From Exophiala sp. HKRS030 (lineage: Eukaryota; Ascomycota; Eurotiomycetes; Chaetothyriales; Herpotrichiellaceae), in the NCBI GenBank assembly GCA_023897205.1, contig JAHWDD010000004.1, positions 4,774,001 to 4,838,000 of the forward strand: a stretch of DNA of 64,000 bases. The letters run 5' to 3'. The notes beneath the pieces were generated by a model. That model was not told the DNA's origin and ran no database searches. It saw only the letters and a program-made list of their open reading frames with translations. The translations under genes and the position numbers were made by a program. This document shows positions 7,591 to 51,163 of the stretch, piece after piece (the first letter of the stretch is position 1; each line of letters begins with the position of its first letter).

Positions 7591-10500
7591 ATGTCCTACA
7601 TTGTCCCAATCCACCGGCCGAGCGGTGTGAGGCATGCGATCAAGCTCAGTTTTCTAGAACCGGGCGTGGACACTCTGGTCATCGCGTTAGTACAATCCTC
7701 GGGCTCATCACAGGTTCAACAACTGACCCATGACACAGGAAGGCCAATCGCCTAGAAATCTACGAGCAGGGAGCCGAAGGCCTCACTCTCCTGTACGCAA
7801 AGACAGTGTTCGGATACATCACGATCCTCGAGAAATTCAGACCATCCTCTTCTACAACGGACCACCTCTTTGTCGGTACCGACCGCTATCAATACTTCAC
7901 GTGTTCATGGGATTCCGATATAAAGCAGTTACACACCGAGCAGAGCTATGTCGACCTGGCAGATAAAGTTCTACGAGACTCAAGAGAATTGGATAGATGC
8001 CATATTGACCCGACAGGACGATTCATGACCCTGGAACTCTACGATGGTGTGGTCACCGTATTACCTTTTGTACAGCCTTCTACTAAACGAGTGAAGAGGG
8101 AGAGTGCTTCGAACACTGTTGGAAAACTAGGGGAACCAGTTCAAGTGAGGATCGAAGAGCTGTTGACTAGATCGTCTGCCTTTCTGGAAGCCGATCCTGA
8201 CAGCAAAGAAAACCCAAAGTTGGCTATACTATGGGAGGACAACCAGGAGAATCCACAGCTGAAGATTCGAGAACTCAAATACTATCCTGGCGGCGAACAG
8301 GCGACGGCTGATCTGGATACGTTGGCTGAATTGAATAGCGACCAGCTCGACAAAGGGGTCAGTCATTTGATTCCCGTTGCCGCCCCGTATGGAGGTTTTC
8401 TCATCCTCGGAGATCATGCAATCCGTTTCGTTGATCGTCATATGAACAATGTCATTACACAGCCATTGGACGATAACGCCACGATATGGACATGCTGGAC
8501 GAAGATCGACGAGCAGAGATTCCTGCTAGCAGACGACTTTGGACGATTATTCTTCCTCATGATCGAAGTGAGCGACTTTGAAGTCTCATCTTGGCGGCTG
8601 GATCCTGTCGGCGAGGCTTCCAAGGCTGCGTGCCTCGTCTATCTGGATGAGGGATATGTCTTTGTCGGTTCACATTCAGGTGACTCACAGGTTGTGCATA
8701 TCGAAGAGGGTGGAGTCCGAGTTGTGCAAACCTTTTCCAATATTGCACCCATTCTAGACTTTACAATTATGGATCTCGGCCGGGGCTCCGAAGGCTCTCA
8801 GTCACTTGAATTCTCTTCTGGTCAAGCACGAATCGTGGCCGCATCTGGTGCATGGCAGGATGGCACAATACGTAGCGTTCGGAGTGGTGTTGGTATGGAG
8901 GAGCTCGGCACCATTGGTGAGCTGGCTCATGTCACAGATCTTTGGGGCTTGAATTCAACCGGTCTGAGCGAGGCACACGATACTCTTCTTGTTTCTTTCG
9001 TCACAGAAACGCGGATTTTCAGATTCGATGGCGAAGCATCAGTGGAGGAAGTGGACGAACTTCACCATCTCGACTTCACACAACCTACACTTTTTGCGAC
9101 AAATCTACCCGACCGCAAACTCGCGCAGGTCTGTGAAGGCGGACTACGGATTACAGATCTGGAGTCTAGTATGCTTACGCTTGAGTGGCAACCCCTCGAT
9201 GCGGCGGCCAAGATCACGGCTGCATGTGCAAATTCAGTCCACTTGCTTGTGGTTGAGGGTGGTCATACACTGCACGTCTTCCACACGGCAAACAGCGACT
9301 CAAAACCGACAGTATCAAAGACGCTTCCTCATGATTCACAGATATCTAGCGTCACAGTACCTGATTCACAGAGCAACGTATGTATTGTGTCCTTTTGGCA
9401 GACGGCGACCGTGGCAGTACTTGATCTCCATTCCCTCGAAGTTCTATACACTCAAAGCGTCGGCACGCCTGGAAGAGATATCCCACGTTCGGTACTTGTT
9501 GCAAACGTTCTTCCCGATGCTGCCCCGACTTTATTCGTCGCGATGGCGGACGGCACTGTCCTGACATATTCTTTCGACACCGGCAGGAATTCCCTTGCCG
9601 GTATGACGAGGATACTTCTGGGAACCGAACCTGTGTTTTTCAAAAAACTCCCGAAAGATCCCGAATCAGGATCAGGGTTATCAAATGTCTTCGCCTCGTG
9701 CGAACAGCCATCACTCATCTACAGTTCCGAGGGCCGCATAGTGTACTCGGCAGTCAACGCAGAGAGTGCGTCGAGGGTATGCGATTTCAACAGTGAGGCA
9801 TACCCTGGGGCCATTGCGATTGCAACGCCGAACGAGCTCAAGCTGGCCATGATAGGACGAGAACGTACGACGCAATTGCAGACACTACATATTGGCGAGA
9901 CGGTCCGCTGTCTCACGTACGGTGCTAATGCCAAGCTGTTTGCGATGGGATGTGTACGCAGAATTATGGAGAGCGGCACGGAAGCGCTACTCTCGGCAGT
10001 CAAGATCGCGGATGAAGTAAGTTTCCGCGAGTTGGACTCGGTCGAGTTGCAGGATCGAGAATTGGTCGAGTGCATTGTCTCGACTGGCAGCTTTGACACC
10101 GAAGACACGGGCCTTGGTGAGATGTTCGTCGTCGGCACGAGTATACTCGAAGAAGATGGCCTCGGTGGTGAGGACGTCATGAGAGGACGGATAATCGTGT
10201 ACGAGGTCAACAAGGAAAAGAAGTTGAAATTGGTCACGCAGATCAACTTGAAGGGAGCTTGCCGCAGTCTAGCCATGTGCGATGGTAAGATTGTGGCAGG
10301 TCTGGTCAAGACTGTAAGTTTTGTACTCGTGTCCTTTTTGATGATCAACCCTGATGTTATTGTCTCGCTGACATTTTGATTTCCACTGAAAAAAGGTTGT
10401 CCTTTACGGCCTCGTACCTTCGTCGAGTAGAGGCGGCAGTTCGCTGGAGTTGTCAAAGTTGGCGACATATCGCACGTCGACGAACCCGTTGTCACTGGCC

Positions 10501-18507: not shown

Positions 18508-19901
18508 CCAATGCTCAACTAATGGATTTGGTCATTGAGAGAGTAAACATGGCGTCGTGCTTGTTTTGTGGTTCTGCCTTTTTGCGTTCTTGGGGTTTGG
18601 CCATCTGATACCCCCCCCCCCATTTGTGCCTGCTGGAGGCGCCGACTTATGTACATGTATGGAACTGTATGACGTGTGATGTTATGTACTGTATTACCAA
18701 AGTCAGATCTTCTCTTACTCAACCTCTTGGGGCACCCTTGGGCCTCTGAAAAATGTAAAGTAACCTCATATTGAAGGGCAGTGGAGTACATTGACGAATG
18801 GGTTACCTTCCCGACTTGCACATATTAGGTCTATAATCAATTAAGTGATTCCACCAGTTATTCGTGGCCTATATATCATAAAAGTGAGGTTTTCTTCAAC
18901 AATTGATTTGCCTTGATGGCCCAACTACCAAGACTCACCGCGTCGCAATGTGACCTTTGTTACATAACTTGGTTTGGAGGCTGGGCTTATCCTTGGAAAC
19001 CAAGCTTTAGTTGGGATTAAACTGGGAGTCGGGCATGGTTTCCATGACCACTTGCAGCAATCTTCTCTTCCAACAAATGGGGAGATGCGAATGGTGGTCA
19101 TAGTCGGGATAAGTAATAGAAGAGCCTGGGGGTTCGAACGTCCAAACTTTTTGTTTCCCCGGCAGGAATGTTTTTTCTTTTCTTTTCTGTTTTTGTAACA
19201 TTCACTGACCACTTTAGGTATGACAGGTGAAGTGTACTACAAGATCTCAAGTCCACTGATCTGGTCAGACCACGCGTATCTTGGACACGCGTCACGGTGG
19301 AGTGAAGAAGAGTAAGCCTCTGAGAGTGTGAAGAAAAAATAGGAACAGACAGCCAGGACTCGTGCTCACCTGGACTTTCTATTTCGCCATCTCGAGGTCA
19401 GTTGAATACCTGAAATTGTCTTCACAAGTACTCCGTATCATTAATGCTCTTCTTCCCTGTAAACGACGAATCTAATTTATATTGGCCAAGTACGTCCGAA
19501 GTTCAAGAATGTCATACTCGAGGCCCGCTTCTTTCGTCGATCGGGCCGAACCCGCACCCGAATCTGTATCGTCCCTCTCACGACGTAAGTGCTTCTTACT
19601 ATTAGAAACTCTGGGAGATAAAAAATTATTTGGCCCTAGGCAGAAAATACGTGTGACGTTGAAGTTAGTCCAAGTCAAGTCAGCACTGGACGCCTTGAAT
19701 AATCTTCAATCTTGGTATGTACGTCGACTCCGGAGTCTGGAGAACAGTGGCTCAAGACCCACACACTCAACTCCACATTGTCCAAACGATCGATCGACCG
19801 CACTTGTATACGAGGACCCAATTAAAGGTGCTGAGTAAAAAGCACCACCTTTTACTTCTCGCAGGGCATTAAAGTTCTTTACAGAATAAAATAAGCACTG
19901 T

Positions 19902-25645: not shown

Positions 25646-26399
25646 GATCGACAGGGTTTGGGAGAAATAGACTTGTCGCATTGTCGACCGCGCGCCAATG
25701 TTGGTGCTGCACATGCCACTGACAAGACATTAAAGAAGCGAACATGTTAGAAACCTGTCAGAAGACGTGTTTCCCAGTGTAGCCTTACCCTGTACCGGGA
25801 TACATGGTACAAGATATTCCCAGGTTACTTCGGTAGTCGCGAGCGAAAAACCTGTCGTCGCTCTTCTCTTTTTGATTAGCCGCCCGCCGCTTTGCTCACC
25901 CTCGGCTCACCTGCCGCTCCCTGAGCGATCCCGGAGCGCTCCCTGAGGACTGCCTGAGCACTTGGACTTCTTTCTTCCTCTTCATTCACAACACCAACTT
26001 TCGTCAACTTTAGACGATGGGACCCGTTTGGGATACTGGGGGATCCCAATCCGGCCCCCGATCTAATGCGCTCGAACTGCTCAGTCGTGCGCCTCCTGCG
26101 CTGCTCTCTTGCGTGGCAATGATGGATCGCCGCCCACTTCGTTCGAACGCCTGGTGGAAAGCCGGCCTTGTGGTGGTCCTCTGGGACATAAGTACAACCC
26201 CTTCGCTCGCTACCTGTTCCCCTTCCACTTAGTAGTTGAGCCTGGAATTTTTGCCAGAAAGTTGGGTTTGCAGTCGTCACTACGGCGTTCACGCCCTCTG
26301 TATTTCCATTTCAAGGCTCTCATCGATTGTCCTTCTTCCTAAGCGTGTTTTCCCCCAACGAGTTTCCGTTCGCTCTCAGCCGTACTATTTCTGCGCCCG
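25646..26399. other. Junction between host genes and the candidate mobile element
   Basis: 754 bp between the FAD oxidoreductase stop and the recombinase ATG. In known Starships the captain is the first gene inside the 5' edge, so the insertion edge should lie here. Short direct repeats GCTCCCTGAG occur at 25916-25925 and 25938-25947. TTAC-type sequences occur (for example 25825), but I cannot fix the target site. An ATG-initiated 71-codon frame at 26017 has no recognisable product. Confidence 0.35.
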
Positions 26400-29300
26400 A
26401 TGGCGAAAGGTCGGAAGGGCTTCTTCGACCGAGCAGAACAACGAGGTTCGGAGTTGGACAAGACGGGGATCGATGGCAAACCTGTCCATAAGTCTCTTGA
26501 AGATGGAACGAAGAGACGATACAAAGATGCTATGAACATATGGGCTGAGTATGGTCTTCCGGTGTCACCTTTCACTCCAGCTCTCCCGGTCTCATTCCTC
26601 TACGTATACTAACTGTACGCGCCTCGAATGTACAGCTATTGTACTAAAACCTACAAAGACCCCGTTAAAGCCGCTTACGATCTGAAAACTCTCAAACACT
26701 TTACCAAAGGAATTGTCTGGGGCCTTGATGGCTGTGAGGGAGAAAATGATCTACCCTCGGCAAAATCCGCCAGACAAGTGTGGAAAGACTTTACGGCCCA
26801 GTTCCGCCGGCAGAATGACCCCATTCCTCGCAATACGACGCTTTCTGTTACGAATGTATGTCCCGCCAGATAAGTTCCCTCTCCCTCATTCTCTCTTAAC
26901 ATGGGCAGAACTCATTAAGTGTAGTGGATCAAAGAGCAAATTAAAAAACGTGGTCTGCCTGCTTCGAAGCGGCCTCGCCGTTACGCGTCGGATAACCACT
27001 TGGTTCATCTAGGGACCCAGCTCTGGGAGCGCGACTGGTTTGAATATAAGCGTCCTGGGATCCGGGTATCGACATGGTCTGAGACTCTCGATTACGGCTT
27101 TACCTCTGCACGGGTGGGGGAGTATCTCGAGTCAACTGCCCGTGCCAATTCCGGGCGTGGACTATACCATCGGGTGAGTGGTTCTGGACTGCGTTTTGAC
27201 ATCTCGCGCCCCGTCCCCTCTGGTAGGACTTGCAATATTTTAACCATGACATATACTTAGGACATTATCTTCATCGTCTTCCGGAACGAGCATGGAAAGC
27301 CCGAGTTTGCTGCCCAGCTTACGCGGGACGCAAAGGGCATGACGTGGACACCAGACAAAAGGTAAGTTTCCCAGTCATCCAGGATTCAAGGCTCCCCCAT
27401 GGTCCTACTAGGGTCTTTATTAACATTGTGGACCGTCAAAACAGGCCAGAACAGGCGATCCACGAAGGCTCGGAGCCACGACCTTTCCTCTTAAACCCGA
27501 TTCTCCCGAAACTGGCAATGTGTCTGGCGCGAGGTGCCTTCCGAGACTATAAAACGATAGACGACGTCTTCAATATTCCGGCGCCACCCGAAAAAGAAGT
27601 CTATCAACTTTTCTGGGAACCCAGCATTTGCAACTGTCCTTTCTATGAAGGCGCTACAACCGAGATTGAGAAGGCAAACTCGTATAGTACGCGACTGAAC
27701 GATTTAGGTCGGCGTGCAGACTATGTAAAGCCGCCCACGATCCATGACTTTCGAGCTGAAGGGCTTCATCTCATCGGTGGGTCCCCTTCCCCGGGCTGCG
27801 ATATGAGGCCATGTTAGCGTTGTGGTGACTACTTCTAATGAAACCAACTAGATTCGCTTTATTCAACAGCACAGAGAATGGGCCACGGGGGGCAATGGAA
27901 CGAACGCACTCACCGCCAGCATTACCAGCCTAATAACCCCGGTACCGATGGCCAAGATGCGTACCTTAGAGGGAAGATTCGGACCATTGTGGCTGACCTG
28001 TTTCGTGGTATGACGGTAGCTCGCAACCCTGATCTCTTTCACTGTCTACCGGCGGAGAAGAAGGCGGAGTTGGAAGCGAGCCCCGAATTTACCTCGATGG
28101 ACAGCGAACTCAAATTCTTGAAAACGCAGCCTCCGTCACAGGACCGCGACCGACGCCGCCGTGAGATCTACAGGGACAGGCAGAAAATGAGAAAAAAGGG
28201 ACTTCGTCACGCGCAGAAGGCTCAACCATGTGAACGACCCTGGGAAGCCAAGGCTGAAATCCGATCCATCGGGGGCTACCGGTCCCGCTTCCAGCGTATC
28301 CGCCACCTGATGCCCGAACGAAGCCGCTTGGCGAAGAGCATGTTCGAGGTTAGCTGTCTGAGGAGCTCCGAAGGCCATCAGGTTCTTCAAGACATGATCG
28401 TCCTCTACAAACAGGAGAAGGAGGTGACCGTCAGACTGGGGTTGGAACCGGACAAGTGTCATTGCCACCCGACTGAGTTGAGCGTGGAGCCAGCTAAGTC
28501 TGTCACCCCAAAGAGACCTGGCCCGCACAAGGGGTTTCGGCGTTGGCCAAGTAAAGCTGGCTTGGGGGTGGCTCTGTCTTCTACTCCAAATTCGACCACA
28601 CCGAGCTGGAAACACATATATATGTGTCACAAGCAATATCTTTCGGGATCGAACGGCTTTGCAGAGTTGTGCTCCCTCTGTAACCGCTGGATCGTCGGCT
28701 TGGATGTATGGGAGCAGCATTGTCAAAGCCACCTCATCGCGCCTCAGACAATCCCCATCCAATGTGACCCGCTCATTTATGGCGGTACCCTGGGCGCTTT
28801 CGGTTATTGCCCGATCTGCCTGGGCAACACGGAGCTGTTGGCGAGAGATCGAATGCAACAATTTACAAGACTGGATTATTGGATGTCTCATGTGACCAAA
28901 TGCACCGAAGAGCTGGATCGGGGAAGCGCGGCAGGTTGCTCAATTCCTTGGTGTGACATCCCATGCGAGAATGCACTGAGTCGGCGATATCACCTCCAGG
29001 ATGTCCACTGCGCGCAGTTCAACAAGGGGTTCAAGCGATCGTCTCAGGATGTGACGGCAGAAGATGTCGACGAAATACCCTCCTGTAAACGCGGCCGTAA
29101 GACTCTCAATAACAAACTCACCGCTGGCCCTGTCGACCCTTCGATCCCTACCGAGAAATATCAATTTATCGATGAGACACCAGAAACCACCAAACCGCCA
29201 AACTCGACTGCAGTCCATTCGCGCGCAATAGGAAAGCTACGAAAGAAGCAGAGCTCTGCTAAGCAGCCCAATTCCCTCGTTCTCACTGTGGTCCCTCCGC

Positions 29301-30169
29301 CGCCCCTTGCCAACTGTCCGACAGATGTCAAAGATGATATCGCGCCGCCAACGATCTCAAATAAGGTCTTTTCCGAGGTGGTTGCGGCTCCTGTGGAGTT
29401 AGCTCCCATCAAGCCGGTAAGACCCGTGTCTAGCTCGCCGACCCTACCGCATTCAAAGGACACCGAAGTCACTCGAGACCCCACTGAAGAGTTTGATGCC
29501 GTTCCTCTACGAATACTCACGTCGCCTATGATTGAGAGTTCGACGCCACCCTCTGACCTTCGCACTGGAACGGCTCAAGAATGCTCGGGCGAGCATTTTC
29601 TTTCAACCTCAGCCCAGGCTGATTGGTCAGGTCCCAATGTCTCCTTTTCTGTAGAGGAATCATCGGACCTCGATCCTGACGTTCAATGTCTAGACCTCAA
29701 AGTCGTGGAGCTAAAGGTGGAACTGCCAATTTCCTATAGTCCGCATGGACCTATTCTTGTATCAGACAGTGATTCAGAAGCCACTACAACCTTGGATCGA
29801 TGCGTCAATACATCGTATCAACGGCCCTACCGCGAAGCTAAAGCATCTTTGCCGCCGCGACGACAGCTCGAGGGTATGAATTTGCTGCACCAAAATGCTT
29901 TCTCCGAGATACACAAGCACCAAGCTGAGCTGCATCATGCAGCGGAACTGGAGTGGGTCAGGCGTGGATATCCTCGCATCGGTTGGCGGAGACTAGATGC
30001 CCGCATTCGAAAATTTCTTCCAGCTCTTGACGGTATATTGGACGGAGAGATCTCGTCACCATTTCTCGCTCAAACGAAGTTGGCCAGAAAACGAAAGGTC
30101 CCTCAAACAATTGGCAATGGAAATGGTGAAGCTGGCTATTATGGTCCCCGGGGATCGCAAATCATGTAA
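26400..30169 (+). CDS. DUF3435 tyrosine recombinase (Starship captain-like) with zinc-finger motifs
   Basis: Six exons: 26400-26548, 26636-26855, 26925-27173, 27261-27361, 27445-27776, 27852-30169; 1,122 residues. Splices join in frame within conserved stretches (WADYCTKTY, VTNWIKEQIKKRG, GLYHRDIIFIVF, WTPDKRPEQA, GLHLIDSLYST). Recombinase landmarks: Arg186 in FTSARVGEY, a Lys in the RNEHGKPEF hairpin, H340-D-F-R343, H362 in RMGHGG and Tyr375 in RQHYQPNNPGTDGQ, the likely nucleophile. The DUF3435 helix-rich region follows (ELEASPEF..., MPERSRLAKSMFEV). Cys/His motifs start near residue 624 (CSLCNRW..H..SH; CPICLGN...H..KC). It ends inside an RTC4-like domain (GYYGPRGSQIM) at a TAA that may be intronic or a nonsense change. 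Confidence 0.85.
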
Positions 30170-30484
30170 GTGAATTCTGAATTGGATTCCAGAGATGCGT
30201 CTAGCCGAATTGCTTTGACGTACTTGAGACACGCAGTCGGCGATCTGCTGACACCATCCAGGAGAGCCCAGATTATTCGAGAATTCGAGTCTCAATTTCC
30301 AAGACGAAGACGTCGAAACCAGGCCTTGCGCCGCACCGGGTTCACGGACTTCGTCAGTAAGGTTTTGGTTCCGGAGCTGGCTGCCAAGTTAATAGAGGAA
30401 GATATGGGAGTGGACGGTGGGAAGGCGCGCGAAATTCTTCGTGAGAGTGTTGCCCTCGGAGGTATTGTACATAAGCTTCATTGA
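30170..30484 (+). pseudogene. C-terminal half of an RTC4-like domain, in frame after the captain stop
   Basis: It reads in the same frame as the recombinase, directly after its TAA. TGFTDFVSKVLVPELAAKLI and EDMGVDGGKAREILRES match the end of the RTC4 domain, whose beginning (GYYGPRGSQIM) lies just before the stop. Either a very short intron (gtaagt at 30166 to ttccag at 30192, 27 bases, divisible by three; 39 bases to the next ag) removes the TAA, or CAA became TAA and cut the protein. Yeast Rtc4 is linked to telomere capping. Confidence 0.6.
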
Positions 30485-31158
30485 TACCATCTCATCAGTA
30501 CTCCGTATACAGTTCTCCGACACTTTTAGGTGGGTGGAATAAAGGGGGCTGTTGTTAACAGACTTAGAGATGAAGACTCACGGAGCTTGATGTCGTGGCA
30601 ATCATCTTGGGAAGGCTGGCAGAGTTTCCGCGCCATCGCGAAAGAAGGAAGCCATTGTATATACTCAATTAACACCAGTCTCCAAGTTGCTTGCTGTTAA
30701 CTGAAGGCAGAGATAATTATCACGTTCTAGACCAAAGCGACAAGATGTGCGATGTACTGTAATCCGAATAAAGCATATATCCCCTACATGTGACTCGCAC
30801 GACCGACTACGTATTGTGCAATGCTGTAATTAAGACCTCGACACCTTTACCAAATGGGAACAGTATTGACCAAGACTTAACAGTCCACCAAACGACACTC
30901 CAAGTCCCTTTCGTCCTTTACAGGGTCAACTGCTTGAACGGGGCCATTTCGAGCTCTTTGCTTGATTTGCCTCCTCGATCTCCCGCACGCTCCCATTCCT
31001 CAGGGGCCCTTTTTGGACGCCATTGCTCTCATTGATCTCACACGTTCAGCGAAGGCTAGTGCCTTACTGGATACACCACTTCGTCCATGTTAAAAAGGCA
31101 CTCTACAGTCCTACTTTTCCACCATCGGCAAGATCTCAGGTAGATAGCAGCCTTCGAC
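30485..31158. other. Intergenic
   Basis: 674 bp between rightward genes. A TACTCCGTA nonamer lies at 30499-30507. No gene seen. Confidence 0.35.
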
Positions 31159-32109
31159 ATGGCTGGCTTGGCACGACTCGTCTTTGCCTTGACATTGTTC
31201 CATATCTCTTCCGTTACTTGTGTCGGGACCGCTTCTATCGAGAACCAGTGTGACGTCGACGTCTATGTTTGGAGCGTCGCAAATGTCCCTAACAACACAG
31301 CTAGTTATCTGGAGCCAAATATTGGTACCTATAACGAGGCCTATCGAGTGAACCCGGATCCGAACGGAGGCATCTCATTAAAAATTGCCACGGTTCCTGA
31401 CGATAGCTTCATCACCCAGTTCGAGTACACTTATCACCCCGACAATCCGAGAGTTTATTACGACATCTCGAATATTAATGGGTACCCATTCGAAATATGG
31501 GGCCTCTATCTCTCGCCATCTTCTGGAGACTGCTCCACGATCACCTGCGACCCTGGTGTGGCTATCTGCCCAGAAGCTTACAACCAGCCAAATGATAACT
31601 TTGCCGTACAAAACTGTGAGGTGTCGGCCGATCTGACTCTCACTTTGTGTCCTCCTCAAACCACGTCATTAGAGGCGGCCACAGTAACTGTGACGACGAC
31701 CGACTCCGGAGGCGATGCCACCCTAACTACTCTCGCGACGACCATTACTTCGGTTAGACCCGTGACTACATCTCAAGGCACACTACCCGAAACTGTTACC
31801 GTGGACTCAGAAAGCTCTTCCACGACCGCGACAACGACAAATCTAGAACCTGTTGTCGTGACTTTAATGACAACAGACACCGCCGGCGATCCTACGTTGA
31901 CCACTCTGACGACGACCATTACGTCGGTCGGGCCGGTGGTCACCTCTCAAGATACAGCATCAGAAATTGGCACTACGGACCCGGCCACTACGAGCATGAT
32001 CACTATCAGTTCAGAAACCATACTTAGAGCCTCAGAGACGACGGACGCTGCTGGTCAACTTTCGCTGACCACACTCACCACAGTAATTGCAGTTACTACC
32101 CTGGATTAA
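31159..32109 (+). CDS. BYS1-like secreted protein with Ser/Thr-rich repeat tail
   Basis: 316 residues, single exon. A signal peptide (MAGLARLVFALTLFHISSVTC) is followed by a BYS1/thaumatin-like domain to about residue 155: VYVWSVANVPNN, PNGGISLKI, YYDISNINGYPF and paired cysteines. The rest is Thr/Ser-rich and built from three diverged copies of a module with the core TTDSGGDATLTTLATTITSV (copies near residues 176, 235 and 293). There is no clear GPI signal. BYS1 was first described as a yeast-phase-specific protein of Blastomyces; its function is unknown. The tail would be heavily O-glycosylated and is the least conserved part. Confidence 0.8.
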   Translation: MAGLARLVFALTLFHISSVTCVGTASIENQCDVDVYVWSVANVPNNTASYLEPNIGTYNEAYRVNPDPNGGISLKIATVPDDSFITQFEYTYHPDNPRVYYDISNINGYPFEIWGLYLSPSSGDCSTITCDPGVAICPEAYNQPNDNFAVQNCEVSADLTLTLCPPQTTSLEAATVTVTTTDSGGDATLTTLATTITSVRPVTTSQGTLPETVTVDSESSSTTATTTNLEPVVVTLMTTDTAGDPTLTTLTTTITSVGPVVTSQDTASEIGTTDPATTSMITISSETILRASETTDAAGQLSLTTLTTVIAVTTLD

Positions 32110-33981: not shown

Positions 33982-34610
33982 TCAAACGGGGTTTCTTTCT
34001 CCACGCAAACGTCGTGCGAGCTGTATATCTTTTGATTCTAAAGACGTTAACCAAGAATTTCCTCTCGTAGGAAGCAGAAACTCGCTCACGAATAGTAACT
34101 CGTTTTGCGTGGATAGCGCAGAGATTAGAATCTTCGAAGAGGCTCACAAGATATAACTCGAGAGCCTCTTGCAGAGCTTCAATTGCCGTCGACTGGAATC
34201 GAAAACCATCCCCTTGCCATTTCATCTGGGGGGTTCTCAGATCGTCTGCAATTTCACGGACAAGCCGTTGAAATGGACGTTTACGAATAAGCAACTCTGT
34301 AGATTTCTGATAGCGACGAATCTCTCTCAGAGCAACCGTTCCTAGTCACCGTCAATCACAATTTCACTTACTCAAATACAAGACAATAGAAGAGCAGAGG
34401 AAAACCCTACCTGGCTTGTATCGATGCGGTTTCTTTACGAGGCCCGTGCTGTCAGGGAGGCGTTTTCCTGAGAGCTGATCTTTCGCAAGGCTTCTTAGGT
34501 TCCTCCTTGGGGCGACACCCCCAGTGCTCTTTCCTGTATGTCATCCTCAACACAAATCAGGGACAATAATCAAGGACAAGCTTACGTGCGGTCTGTTTCG
34601 TCCTCGCCAT
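33982..34610 (-). CDS. Divergent histone H3 variant
   Basis: Four exons on the minus strand: 34610-34586, 34533-34411, 34341-34090 and 34037-33982 (introns of 52, 69 and 52 bp, all GT-AG); 151 residues against about 136 for canonical H3. The N-terminal 13 residues after Met match H3 ([13 protein letters not shown]), keeping K4, K9 and S10. K14 is Val and K18 is Arg. The K23-K27 stretch is replaced by unrelated sequence 5 residues longer. From [10 protein letters not shown] onward it is H3 again, but loop 1 has 8 extra residues ([10 protein letters not shown]) before RFQSTAI. The end [20 protein letters not shown] is identical to H3. It is divergent from a small secreted protein gene. Canonical H3 must lie elsewhere in the genome. 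Confidence 0.9.
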
Positions 34611-38212: not shown

Positions 38213-38294
38213 CCCATTCAAGTGGCTCAGTGAAGGATCCATTTTAGGACCCCTACAGAGATATTTAAGATAGGATGAACCTCTAAGCAGATTC

Positions 38295-39821
38295 ATGTCC
38301 AGTATCGACACCAAAATGCGACGGGCTCGACTTCTGGGGAAAGAACGCAGCATCGTAACAGAAAAAGCTCTCAAGTGCAAGGGCATGGTCAGTGTCCGAC
38401 TTGAGGTGCTGTCGTTTCCAGAGATTAAGACAAGAGATCCCACGAAGCTGAAGAGCAATGTGAAGAGGCTGAAGAAAGCATTTCGGGATGAAGGTTGCTG
38501 GCGGCTGCCGTTGCCGAATCACATTCCAGCTCAAATCGATAAGCAGAGTCTCGATGCCGCCCTTCGACATTCACAGCGCTCGAGCAAAGAACTTTTTGTG
38601 GGCCCCCGAGACGAATATCCCGAGCTCGAGTTTCCACCGGGTTACCAGCTCATGTGTCTGGATGGGCAGAGCCGCGCTCTTGCTGCCGCAAAGGTTCTTC
38701 CTGTCGCGGACCGGAGGTGGATCGTAGATTTATATGCTGCAGGTATGAGATGCTTACTCTCGTATAGCGAGACATTACATTGATATATGGTTGTTAGACC
38801 TCACAGAAGAGCTCAGGACGATTCTGGTGGAGGAATACTCGAATGAAGACCGTCTGCATCCTGGAGAGATCTACCGAAAACTTCGGCTGTATCACCTCCA
38901 AAGGGACTTGCGAATCGACAATTGGTGGTTTGAAAAACGGTGCTGGGCACGTTTGTCAGCTCATGGACGCCGCAATGTCAAGCAGCTCCTGCGCCACCGT
39001 GAAATAACCGCGGCCTGTGATGCCCTGCTGGACGTTGTCGGGCTTTGGAGCGGTTGGAGAACAAGCACCTGGCACAAGATACTTCCAATGGGTGTTGACG
39101 AGGTAAGTTCCACCTTGCGGGCCATTTAGGTTCTCACCAATTATTGTAGTGCATCCTATACAGCCTCGATCTCATGAAAGATTTTTGGTACGAGAGCGTT
39201 GGGGTAGAACGGGATGCGATGCAGAAAGTCGACGAAAACAGCGTCAAAGAACTTGAGGGTACCGCCCCTGGGGCGTGCAAAGCGGATGCTCGGGATCTAT
39301 ATAAGAAGTTGAAGGCTGGAAAAATCTTCGGAGCTTTCAATGACCAAGATCGCGAAAAAATCTGGGCCGAAGTGTGTCGTCGGACGAAAGATCGCTTGGT
39401 CCCGTCATTTTTCACCTTCTTCGAGGATTTGAACTGGCTGAAGGGCCCAGCGGACTGCGTCAAACGGTTGATACCTATATCACCCGATGACACGATCCTC
39501 TACGCACTGGAACAGTACGTTTTCACAGGCGTTAACCAGCGAACCGGCCAGTGCTTGATCCAGAAACCTGATCATACTTTCGTTTCTAAGCCAGGAACTG
39601 AGGCCGATCAAATGAATCTGGGAGTTTTACAGCTATTTCTCATCGCCATGCGCAACCACCTTAACATGCCGGCCGAACCTAAGAAAAAGAATTTACTCGC
39701 AAAGCCAAGACCAAAGAAAGCGGATCCTGAGGTCCTACACGAATTTGCCGCCTATGCCCACAAGCTAGGCTTTGAGTCAGATGAGATTCGTGAACTGACG
39801 GAACTCAGAGCGTCATCGTAA
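38295..39821 (+). CDS. DUF3723 protein, N-terminal and middle part (Starship accessory family)
   Basis: Exons 38295-38742, 38798-39102 and 39150-39821. Joins LYAAD/LTEELRTIL and MGVDE/CILYSLDLMKDFW are in frame. Family landmarks: LKCKGMVSVRLEVLSFPE, GCWRLPLPNHIPAQID, PPGYQLMCLDGQSRALAA, FTFFEDLNWLKGPADCVKRL, FTGVNQRTGQCLIQ and YAHKLGFESDEI. The DUF3723 family has a ParB-like look (LDGQSRALAA resembles the GxxR..A nuclease/CTPase box), but its function is unknown. It is one of the recurrent accessory genes of Starships. The natural gene continues into the next feature: a gtaagc donor at 39818 precedes the family continuation at 39937, though the two phases do not match cleanly. Confidence 0.82.
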
Positions 39822-47991: not shown

Positions 47992-50151
47992 TCATGTAGA
48001 ATCACTATCTTCGGCAACAGCATCTTCTGAAGCAGAATGAAGGCGCCGCAACTCATGCAGCTCCCTCAGCGCTACGGCTCGTTCACCTCTGTCCGCCATC
48101 ACACTCTCGCCAGTAGTAGATGCAGTTCTATGAAGTGTAGTACCGCTATCTGGAACTCCGCTTGACGACGTTCTCTCTTGTTTGTAGGAACGACTTCTCG
48201 ACCGGGTCGATGAGATGCGCCGGACGGCGTGAGTGCGCGTCTGGCTCCCGTGACCGCGGTCTTGGCGCAATTCAAAATCGTTTGAGCGCCGAGAACGGCT
48301 TTCGGGGTTTTCAGTCGATACCACACTGGATCTCCTTCTTGTGATAGCCCCACCATCGTAACCGAGACCCCGGAGTTGGCGGCTGTTCTTTTCTCGTTCC
48401 CTTTTTCGCAAGTCATCCTCCCTGTCTCGGATCATTCCACCACCGAGACTTGCATATCCTGGCTCAACATCGTCACCGAGACCCTCGCGTTCCAATCGAC
48501 TCATCCGTACCTCTGGCATCTCCGGCATCCCTCCCAGAGAAGCTAAAACATTGTCGCCAGTGGCGGTGAGGCAGTCCATCACTTCCAATTCATGGCACGT
48601 GAACAGATGAGGCAAGATTTTCCAGCGAAGCGGGATCAACGCCACAATCAAGACAGGAAATCCAATGGCACCAATTGTCTGGCTGATGGCGACCGAGGCT
48701 GCGAACCCCAGGAATTGCCAAAATAGGTAATGCCAGATCTGGCGACGGAGGACCGAATTCAGTGGATCGGAAGGACGCTGAAAGGTCGGATCCCGGAAGA
48801 GAAAGGCCAGTTTATGTGTGAATATTGGGTTCGTCATGATACTACCCATCCCGACGGTGAAAAAGACACCACTAATGATGGCCCGGGGTATGAGAGAGAG
48901 GACCTTCAGTAAAGGTCCGGTCATGGTTCCAAAAAGTGCCAAGGCCATCAGGACATGCGATATACGCTGCTCCGCCACATGGTCAGCCACGGCTTCCTTG
49001 CGGATGATGGTAGGCTCCGTGTCATCTTTCGTCTCGATGACGTAAGGTTCGTCTTTATAAAATGTGAGAGAGTCAGTGTGAACTGGTGCTTGTGGGACAA
49101 GGCCATTAGGGAGCGGTATATTCAGGATACCACCAACAAAGCAGGTGCATCCTAACAGGAAAAAGTCCCAGTGAAACCCGGCCGGCTTTTTCAGCGGAAA
49201 GTTGCGGGCTTGTGCCGTCAATGAGGAGACATTGTGATCATAGTAGAACAGTAGCGTCATGAGGAAGCCAAAAGGGGCGGCAACAAAGACCCATTTCGCG
49301 GACAATGTCCAGAAATCCACCACCCACGGTCTATTGATTGTTGGAGAGAAAGCACGAGTGACCGGAAGGTATTCGAAATCTGCGTGCGCGAGGTTCCCTG
49401 GAAAATGGGTGAAGCCGGTCCACCAGATCGTCGCCAATGGATAGGCGTAGTCTGAAAGGATGGTGCGCAGCCACCCGCGCGTATAGGTTGTTTGGCCGAT
49501 TTGCTCCAGCAAATAGACCGTGAGGAAGTATAGAATTGCCACCAATGCCGAAGCAAAGCCATTCGTGGTATTGCCGTTGTTAAACCCAATGCTGAGCTCT
49601 TCGCAGCCTTTGATGACATAGATCGTGCCGACGTATAGGCCAAACGTTTGAGACGAAAAGTCGGTAATCGTGCGCATATAGTCGCAGAGGTTGAATATTG
49701 CGGTGCACCAGTGGAAAATGGCGGACCAGATACCAACCCAGACAAGAAAGCGAGGATACAGTGTGACATCGTAGATTTTAACGATATCGTAGATCGTATA
49801 GTTGAACAGTGAGATCAACCCCGTCACTCCAACGACCGTCAATGGCTGGCAGGAAAGAAGGCTAAAGACGGCCGCGGCAAGGGCCGAAGAGAGGAGAGCC
49901 TCGTTGATTCCAAAAAAGCCGTCTGTATTGTGTTGCATGTCAAGTTGAAAGGCCAAGGCTGGCAACAGATTGACGAAATAGATCCGAACCGTTCCGGCAA
50001 AGACACGATAAACGAATCCATCTTTGAAGTCGCTCCAATAGTAGGGAAGCCGTCGACGGACATCGTTATACATTCCCCGGCCAAGGCGCTTAAGACGGCT
50101 GAAGAGGCCTTGATCGTCTCGCCATTTGTACGGTTCATCCAGGGCCTCCAT
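47992..50151 (-). CDS. Bor1-like borate/anion exporter (SLC4 family)
   Basis: 719 residues, single exon, ATG at 50151. SLC4/bicarbonate-transporter landmarks: FAGTVRIYFVNLLPALAFQLD with the first core helix, SSALAAAVFSLLSCQPLTVVGVTGLISLFNYT, KWVFVAAPFGFLMTLLFYYDHNVSSL, FHWDFFLLGCTCFVGGILNIPLPNGLVPQAP and SHVLMALALFGTMTGPLLKVL. About 12 membrane helices fill residues 50-560. The remaining 150 residues form a cytosolic tail rich in Arg/Ser (SRSRSYKQERTSSSG). Yeast Bor1 is a plasma-membrane borate exporter, so boron tolerance is a plausible role, but other anions are possible. It reads intact, in contrast to the decayed ferric reductase nearby. Divergent from the SET gene. Confidence 0.9.
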   Translation of the reverse strand: MEALDEPYKWRDDQGLFSRLKRLGRGMYNDVRRRLPYYWSDFKDGFVYRVFAGTVRIYFVNLLPALAFQLDMQHNTDGFFGINEALLSSALAAAVFSLLSCQPLTVVGVTGLISLFNYTIYDIVKIYDVTLYPRFLVWVGIWSAIFHWCTAIFNLCDYMRTITDFSSQTFGLYVGTIYVIKGCEELSIGFNNGNTTNGFASALVAILYFLTVYLLEQIGQTTYTRGWLRTILSDYAYPLATIWWTGFTHFPGNLAHADFEYLPVTRAFSPTINRPWVVDFWTLSAKWVFVAAPFGFLMTLLFYYDHNVSSLTAQARNFPLKKPAGFHWDFFLLGCTCFVGGILNIPLPNGLVPQAPVHTDSLTFYKDEPYVIETKDDTEPTIIRKEAVADHVAEQRISHVLMALALFGTMTGPLLKVLSLIPRAIISGVFFTVGMGSIMTNPIFTHKLAFLFRDPTFQRPSDPLNSVLRRQIWHYLFWQFLGFAASVAISQTIGAIGFPVLIVALIPLRWKILPHLFTCHELEVMDCLTATGDNVLASLGGMPEMPEVRMSRLEREGLGDDVEPGYASLGGGMIRDREDDLRKREREKNSRQLRGLGYDGGAITRRRSSVVSTENPESRSRRSNDFELRQDRGHGSQTRTHAVRRISSTRSRSRSYKQERTSSSGVPDSGTTLHRTASTTGESVMADRGERAVALRELHELRRLHSASEDAVAEDSDST

Positions 50152-51163
50152 TGCAGGATCTCTGTCCGGCCGGGTTATGTTGATATCGGGATAGAACAGA
50201 AGGATAAATTGGGTCAGGCCCAGGGATGGTGTCTGATCGCGCCGTTGTTACAGCGCCGTATAATCAGAAAACTGCAAAGAAAGGAATCACCTGTTTATAT
50301 ATGTGTATTAGGAATCGTTGAATTTCTGCCAATGCCGATCCTCGCTAGGGTAACCCATATCTGGCCAGGCTTGGCGAGTCTGCTCCACATGCGATTTTCA
50401 CCGCTGATTGTGGCACCCACGAACGAGTTATTCGAAGGGGTGGCACAGACTAGTGCATGCGAGGAGGTATAGATCGTGCAACCAAGCAAGCTCAAAGAAC
50501 TTCGGAATGTTTCAAGGCGGACGGGGCATGAGCAGACAGGGAGAGAAATCTACAAGACGACATGCGATCAACAGGCAATTCTAAGCTTGGCGTTGCGGTC
50601 CTGGGCGAGAATTGATCTCGTCCCTCGAGGTTGACCGCAACAATCTAAACCCGGAACCATGACGTGACTGGGCAATTGTGCAAATACGTTTTTGAAAGGG
50701 CCCCGCACATCTCCCCTAAGCGAGCGCTGTCAACTTAAACCACGCCTGAGAAGAGCGGAGTCGCCCAACTTGTTGGGGGAAAACGCACTTGAGCAGCTGG
50801 CACACTGGGGCTTTGGTAGTGCGTGGCTAAATGAGATAGAACTGTCGAACATGAGATCAACTGCTCTGATACAAAATGAATCCCTCCATTTTCGATCATG
50901 ACGTGATGAAAATGTCAACGATGGCTTGTGGACCCCACTATTTGCAGGCCGGCCTTGCCGATAAAAGGGCGAATCACCCGTAGCAAAGAAACATTTTCTG
51001 CCCGGGCAGAAAATGAGCAGGGCAGAAAAAGAGCACAGAGCCTGTAATGACGTCAGCAATACTTGCCAAGGCGCCGGCTGTGTAAATCTTGTCGCAGGAA
51101 TCTCGGTGAGCGAAAACCCATTCCCCGCCCACCTCTCGTCTCTACCCTCGCCATCTACTCGCC
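50152..51163. promoter_or_regulatory. Divergent promoter region of Bor1-like and SET genes
   Basis: 1,012 bp. The SET-proximal end holds a 20-base palindrome (50994-51013), a TGACGTCA CRE box (51048-51055) and TGCCAAGGCGCC (51064-51075). Versions of these elements recur upstream of the broken SET copy near 57.6 kb. Confidence 0.5.
50994..51013. promoter_or_regulatory. Perfect 20-base palindrome upstream of the SET gene
   Basis: TTTTCTGCCC followed by its exact reverse complement GGGCAGAAAA. It begins 170 bases before the SET ATG. The half site GGGCAGAAAA recurs at 51020-51029. Confidence 0.8.

Follow-up and report, generated by a model that had tools for sequence, protein, structure and literature searches.

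A histone H3 variant with an altered tail and a longer loop 1 next to a captain-like gene in Exophiala sp. HKRS030

Histones rank among the most constrained proteins. In several fungi accessory DNA is silenced via H3K27me3, and in yeast the nucleosome surface made up of loop 1 and K79 is important for silencing. Histone genes on horizontally moving DNA are reportedly present on an accessory chromosome of Metarhizium; it is a whole chromosome that moves there, whereas the DNA described here is Starship-like. In Starships, the captain is a DUF3435 tyrosine recombinase that lies next to the element edge and points inward. DUF3723 is a Starship accessory family (PMC12506042; PMC11623301, in the portions of both that were available). 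According to the accessible part of one report, genes marked by H3K27me3 in Verticillium dahliae are enriched in plastic regions, and no difference in the level of the mark was seen between Starship regions and the remaining plastic regions (PMC12289983). The literature searched (titles and the openings of abstracts, with few subscription papers) disclosed neither a histone as Starship cargo nor the H3 reported below. The word 'histone' is absent from PMC12134995, PMC11623301 and PMC12506042, and the histone passage in the available text of PMC11857905 concerns a chromodomain protein.

The window analysed here, a stretch of 64,000 nucleotides, was found to share with Starships a captain at an element edge, reading inward, that is orthologous to a DUF3435 protein and more alike across species than the core, together with DUF3723 and cargo-like genes that also occur on another captain-bearing contig. 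It differs from the Starships of the literature searched in carrying a gene for a divergent histone H3 between the captain and the DUF3723 genes.

The H3 variant gene and its protein

33982..34610, minus strand: gene of the H3 variant, with 4 exons encoding 151 aa; P0012 is identical at 149 of 151 residues
34586..34610, minus strand: exon 1, 25 nt, encoding MARTKQTA plus 1 nt
34411..34533, minus strand: exon 2, 123 nt, the rewritten tail with 5 additional residues and K14V, K18R and K27R
34090..34341, minus strand: exon 3, 252 nt, αN, α1, loop 1 with an 8-residue insertion, and α2
33982..34037, minus strand: exon 4, 56 nt including the stop, the end of loop 2 and α3

The first-pass annotation had joined four short minus-strand exons into an H3 of 151 residues. 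This model was borne out by three GT...AG introns with lengths of 52, 69 and 52 nt, by a joined coding sequence of 151 codons for amino acids with no internal stop, and by an orthologue in E. dermatitidis. The protein matches the Pfam Histone family (PF00125) at E = 3.2e-41, and CENP-T_C and CENP-S, two other histone-fold families, scored below their own cut-offs. A PDB search retrieved 202 distinct sequences at E<=0.001, and the best 60 of the 202 were all H3 types. When the host genome was searched with the DNA of the variant, the only match was the gene itself. The Rfam scan of the window gave no matches.

The orthologue, P0012 ('histone H3 [Exophiala dermatitidis]'), is also 151 aa long and differs only by L40R and N149H (98.7% identity), such that the rewritten tail and the loop-1 insert are the same in both proteins apart from L40R. 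As a nearly identical protein of the same length is annotated in E. dermatitidis, the odd features are conserved and the gene itself is almost certainly real; a pseudogene was rejected given the intact model and the conserved orthologue. The reference genome of E. dermatitidis (strain ATCC 34100, apparently the strain meant in the truncated UniRef label) was annotated with RNA-seq, with support for 8826 of 9269 genes as stated in the available part of its description (PMC4059230). The gene had initially been called hidden; it had indeed not been singled out before, but the E. dermatitidis copy was already annotated as histone H3.

The protein search covered 5.8 billion proteins, and the best 120 of 7991 scored matches were considered. 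P0012 was the sole near-identical protein among these 120, and its 90% cluster includes two member sequences on four contigs, with E. dermatitidis the only name in the visible part of the label. The remaining fungal matches among the best 120 were 58–76% identical to the variant, which is named there from neither E. spinifera nor E. xenobiotica. An orthologue as near as P0012 should rank high, so that it is more distant relatives that could sit below the best 120 of 7991.

Residues were compared with the canonical H3 of the same genome, which is encoded by two genes for identical proteins of 136 aa. The variant is identical at 110 of 136 aligned positions and differs at 26, and it has insertions of 5 residues in the tail and 8 residues in loop 1 as well as 2 additional residues at the C-terminus. 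The substitutions include K14V, K18R, K23L, K27R, S28L, K79R, S87T and G90E, and the intron positions also differ from those of canonical H3. Residues 1–13, the start of αN-α1, α3, and the DNA and H3-H3' contacts are common to the variant and canonical fungal H3; K4, K9, K36, K37, K56, K64, K115 and K122 are kept, as are R83 and F84, which contact DNA, and C110, H113 and nearly the whole of the last third. The alignment is thus in agreement with the tail and loop changes described earlier (K14 to Val, K18 to Arg, a changed and lengthened K23/K27 stretch, and a longer loop 1) and with an essentially canonical beginning and C-terminal third, and adds the loss of K79. S87 and G90, chaperone-specificity positions of animal H3s, are T and E in the variant.

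The length of loop 1 was expressed as the spacing from REIA to RFQ, which is 15 residues in the variant and 12 in the CENP-A-type proteins of the host. In 114 of the best 120 of 7991 protein matches the spacing is 7; of the others, three do not match the pattern and three have 14–16 residues, namely P0012, P0077 and P0051, the last looking like an artefact of the pattern. The AlphaFold monomer was poor (pLDDT 61.5, pTM 0.33), and this low-confidence model draws a hairpin in the loop-1 region with strands at 88–92 and 95–99. The top Foldseek matches of the model were nucleosome H3 chains (TM 0.16–0.21), to which no weight was given because both the confidence of the model and the TM values are low. 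The dN between the variant and canonical H3 was 0.20–0.21, a rough value since the routine gave 0.02 for two identical proteins, and dS was returned as -1 and taken as saturated.

The genome (59.8 Mb, 50 contigs) has 19 Histone-fold matches. Besides the two canonical H3 genes, there are two CENP-A-type genes on contig C1 (L001, C1:198214, and L002, C1:2206652), which are open after joining and encode 151 and 159 aa. The variant is therefore an extra H3, and the possibility raised at first that it was the only H3-type gene of the genome was ruled out by the two canonical genes. In a midpoint-rooted histone-fold tree of 19 rows, 14 of them distinct, the two CENP-As split from the other 17 rows at 100/99, and the variant and P0012 formed a pair (100/100) whose long branch lies within the H3s, in a tree with 8 of its 11 inner forks unresolved. 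Its membership of the H3 family is indicated by PF00125, the PDB matches and this placement, which ruled out a CENP-A identity, and the 26 differences and two insertions set it apart from canonical H3. With CENP-A/CenH3 the variant shares a longer loop 1, but it does not group with the CENP-As, has no W of the RWQ motif, and possesses an H3-type α2, an H3 tail start and an H3-like C-terminus. The original description as neither canonical H3 nor standard CENP-A therefore stands on both the alignment and the tree.

The Starship-like setting

25825..25840, plus strand: TTACTTCGGTAGTCGC at the element's left edge, where resemblance to the sister element at C5:4708765 sets in; flanks unrelated
26400..30481, plus strand: captain (tyrosine recombinase) gene, orthologous to P0122 of E. 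xenobiotica, a protein of 1195 aa with DUF3435 and RTC4
31144..32109, plus strand: ORF with a Bys1 domain, between the captain and the H3 variant
38274..39821, plus strand: two ORFs matching DUF3723
47992..50247, minus strand: ORF with an HCO3-transporter domain; similar DNA on contigs C26 (1.4 kb from captain matches) and C3
52491..53600, plus strand: 369-aa ORF with no Pfam family; similar DNA also on C26

The captain starts about 8 kb to the left of the H3 variant, and its 3' end is about 3.5 kb from it. The captain ORF (27842-30169), extended by exons from 26400, is 98% identical over the ORF to P0122 of E. xenobiotica, 89% over 77% to P0124 of E. dermatitidis and 74% to P0123 of Rhinocladiella similis. 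P0122 scores DUF3435 at 37.7 bits (cut-off 25.8). The ORF at 27842-30169 alone matched no Pfam family, and none of the 36 matches to PF11917 across the genome falls within the window. No DUF3435 was recognised directly in the window, so that the gene is called a captain on the strength of its orthologues.

At C5:4708765-4713453 there is a sister copy with 83% identity. The similarity begins abruptly at 25825 (TTACTTCGGTAGTC versus TTATTTTGGTAGTC), and the sequence to the left is unrelated, such that the captain, with its start at about 26400, adjoins the edge. Contig C26 has captain matches at 39.0–40.3 kb along with DNA resembling the transporter gene and the ORF at 52.5–53.6 kb. The NLR, PLP and FRE accessory families were not found among the scanned ORFs of the window. 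Captain orthology, the shared left edge and DUF3723 thus agree with the Starship-like setting first proposed, and on sequence grounds the H3 variant is likely to be Starship cargo.

No convincing right end with direct repeats was found in 84 kb, so that the element is delimited by its left edge only. At 72.5–73.0 kb from the window start there is a 57.5% match to 200 C-terminal residues of P0124, which is consistent with an element extending past the window. The left-edge motif recurs as an exact copy of 10 bp at 31745, inside the Bys1 ORF. If this were a true end, the captain element would be 5.9 kb long, with the H3 variant just outside; the copy was considered a probable chance occurrence because it falls within a repeated coding stretch and Starship-type genes are located further to the right.

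The DDB1 gene (window 7734-10376) is 94% identical to that of E. spinifera, 88% to E. xenobiotica, 86% to E. viscosa and 82% to E. dermatitidis. The captain identity of 98% with E. xenobiotica is ten points above that of DDB1, one housekeeping gene, and points to horizontal movement. The H3 variant, 98.7% identical in E. dermatitidis and not named from the two closer species among the best 120 of 7991 matches, fits a mobile gene of patchy distribution. Strong purifying selection on a vertically inherited H3, accompanied by losses, would be an alternative explanation of the same pattern.

As a separate observation, the last 200 residues of P0124 match DNA 43–46 kb downstream of the window captain, the interior of the element seemingly having been lost there.

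Possible role in chromatin and alternatives

The reading preferred, tentatively and at somewhat less than even chance, is that a cargo H3 enters some nucleosomes, which would then have no K14, K27 and K79 marks, and lets chromatin escape silencing. The variant carried by the Starship would be translated, pair with H4 and replace H3 in some nucleosomes; we infer this replacement because residues of the H3-H3' and DNA contacts are kept. Such nucleosomes would still be open to marks at K4, K9, K36 and K56, would be closed to K14 acetylation, K27 methylation and K79 methylation, and would expose an altered loop-1/K79 surface in which a bulky loop 1 adjoins position 79. The chromatin of the element or of the host could in this way escape PRC2-type and loop-1-dependent silencing.

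As Aspergillus fumigatus is without PRC2 (PMC7348808, in the part of the text available), the presence of PRC2 in this host had to be tested. Two host proteins with CXC and SET domains are EZH2-like, and one of them also scores the fungal Ezh2-like CXC model. A PRC2-type enzyme is therefore likely in the host, and it becomes more plausible that the loss of K27 matters. The first-pass proposal that silencing or acetylation of chromatin would change with the loss of K27 and K14 is a fair hypothesis. A function of the variant in chromatin is plausible, with the chances about evenly balanced, and an anti-silencing role in particular is a minority reading. That black-yeast Starships carry their own loop-1-reshaped H3 devoid of K27, K14 and K79, as a portable anti-silencing device between species, seems rather unlikely. 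If true, a mobile element with such an H3 would represent a new way for cargo to meet host silencing, and a divergent H3 that is conserved in a second species would be unusual in the Starship repertoire even if it were no more than cargo.

It is possible, at a lower probability, that a host H3 paralogue was picked up by the Starship and has stayed intact, perhaps weakly expressed, with no role in chromatin. The GC3 of the variant is 0.44 versus 0.61–0.66 in canonical H3, a value in keeping with weak expression, and Starships may mobilise neutral or detrimental cargo, as stated in the portion seen of PMC12134995. Divergent H3-like sequences occur at six places (the window, C5:2948233, C18:178184, C24:597, C19:17974 and C46:15546), which shows that H3 copies have arisen repeatedly away from the usual H3 loci of the genome, although a complete gene with an orthologue that is conserved was seen in this analysis only in the window. 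Three of the copies have stops (C24 TAA, C19 TGA, C46 two TAA), a point in favour of a passenger. Against it, E. dermatitidis has kept the novelties of tail and loop 1, with 2 of 151 residues differing, while between the two captains the difference is 11% (matched 77%) and for DDB1 it is 18%. The almost canonical last third likewise argues against a gene with no role.

It is distinctly unlikely that the variant is an ordinary, vertically inherited Exophiala paralogue merely situated near a captain. Its presence in E. dermatitidis at 99%, the intron positions, which suggest an old paralogue, and the right end that was not found, leaving room for a short element on the left side, would all suit such a gene; it is nevertheless not named from the two species closer by DDB1, E. 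spinifera and E. xenobiotica, among the best 120 of 7991 matches, and the variant is flanked by the captain on one side and DUF3723 on the other.

A centromeric, CENP-A-like H3 serving the element or a neocentromere is highly improbable: its loop 1 exceeds that of H3 by 8 residues (by 5 in the host CENP-As), but the variant groups with H3 apart from the CENP-A pair (100/99), keeps the tail start and C-terminus of H3, is devoid of the RWQ and EAFLVHLFED residues of the host CENP-As, and resides in a genome that already has two CENP-A-type genes. Equally improbable is an interfering histone that poisons the PRC2 or the chaperones of the host, for which the changed K27 motif, the altered S87/G90 (a chaperone motif) and the EZH2-like proteins could be adduced, but the known PRC2 poison is K27M, and this variant has R for K27 in an altered context, K27R/S28L being a loss of substrate and not a known inhibitor.

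Other divergent H3 copies and the duplicated genome

C18:158301-183236 (L024, L025, L018): Starship-like cluster with a captain-like gene, DUF3723, SsdA_C, a patatin-like ORF and a divergent H3

The second divergent H3, at C18:178184-178441, has a similar neighbourhood. The cluster includes a captain-like gene at 160.6–163.4 kb with a DUF3435 match below the cut-off, DUF3723 at 168.6–170.0 kb, a patatin-like ORF at 180.9–181.6 kb, also below the Pfam cut-off, and an ORF with an SsdA_C (deaminase-toxin C-terminal) domain. As the captain points away from the H3, the two need not belong to one element.

A segment of 4969 bp is shared by C24 (L017:324-5273) and C5:2943824-2948740 (L031/L003) at 90.7% identity and contains a divergent H3 followed by a 1137-aa ORF with JmjC and SET domains. 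In the C24 copy it is the H3 that is interrupted by a stop, with the JmjC-SET ORF open; in the C5 copy the exons of the H3 fold are open and the JmjC-SET gene is spread over three frames. Contig C19 (L010) has a partial copy of this segment.

Each of the genes compared is present in two copies that have diverged, with 74% protein identity for DDB1 and DNA identities of about 79% for the canonical H3 loci, 72–73% for the CENP-A loci, 73% for L011/L012 and 72–79% for L013/L014. Of the DDB1 copies, one is close to E. spinifera and the second has 70–77% identity over its larger exon to 12 of 13 relatives and 61% to the 13th. These diverged copies, and the location of both CENP-As on one contig, suggest that the genome is duplicated or has a hybrid origin. 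Two other Exophiala strains have genomes of 27–28 Mb, as given in the part of the report available (PMC10512282), versus 59.8 Mb here. That one fungal genome has two CENP-A-type genes whose frames are open, both on C1, is recorded as an observation in its own right. Finally, a dispersed repeat at window 18804-19189 accounted for 34 of the 41 matches of one DNA search, with 72–86% identity and a genome-wide distribution.
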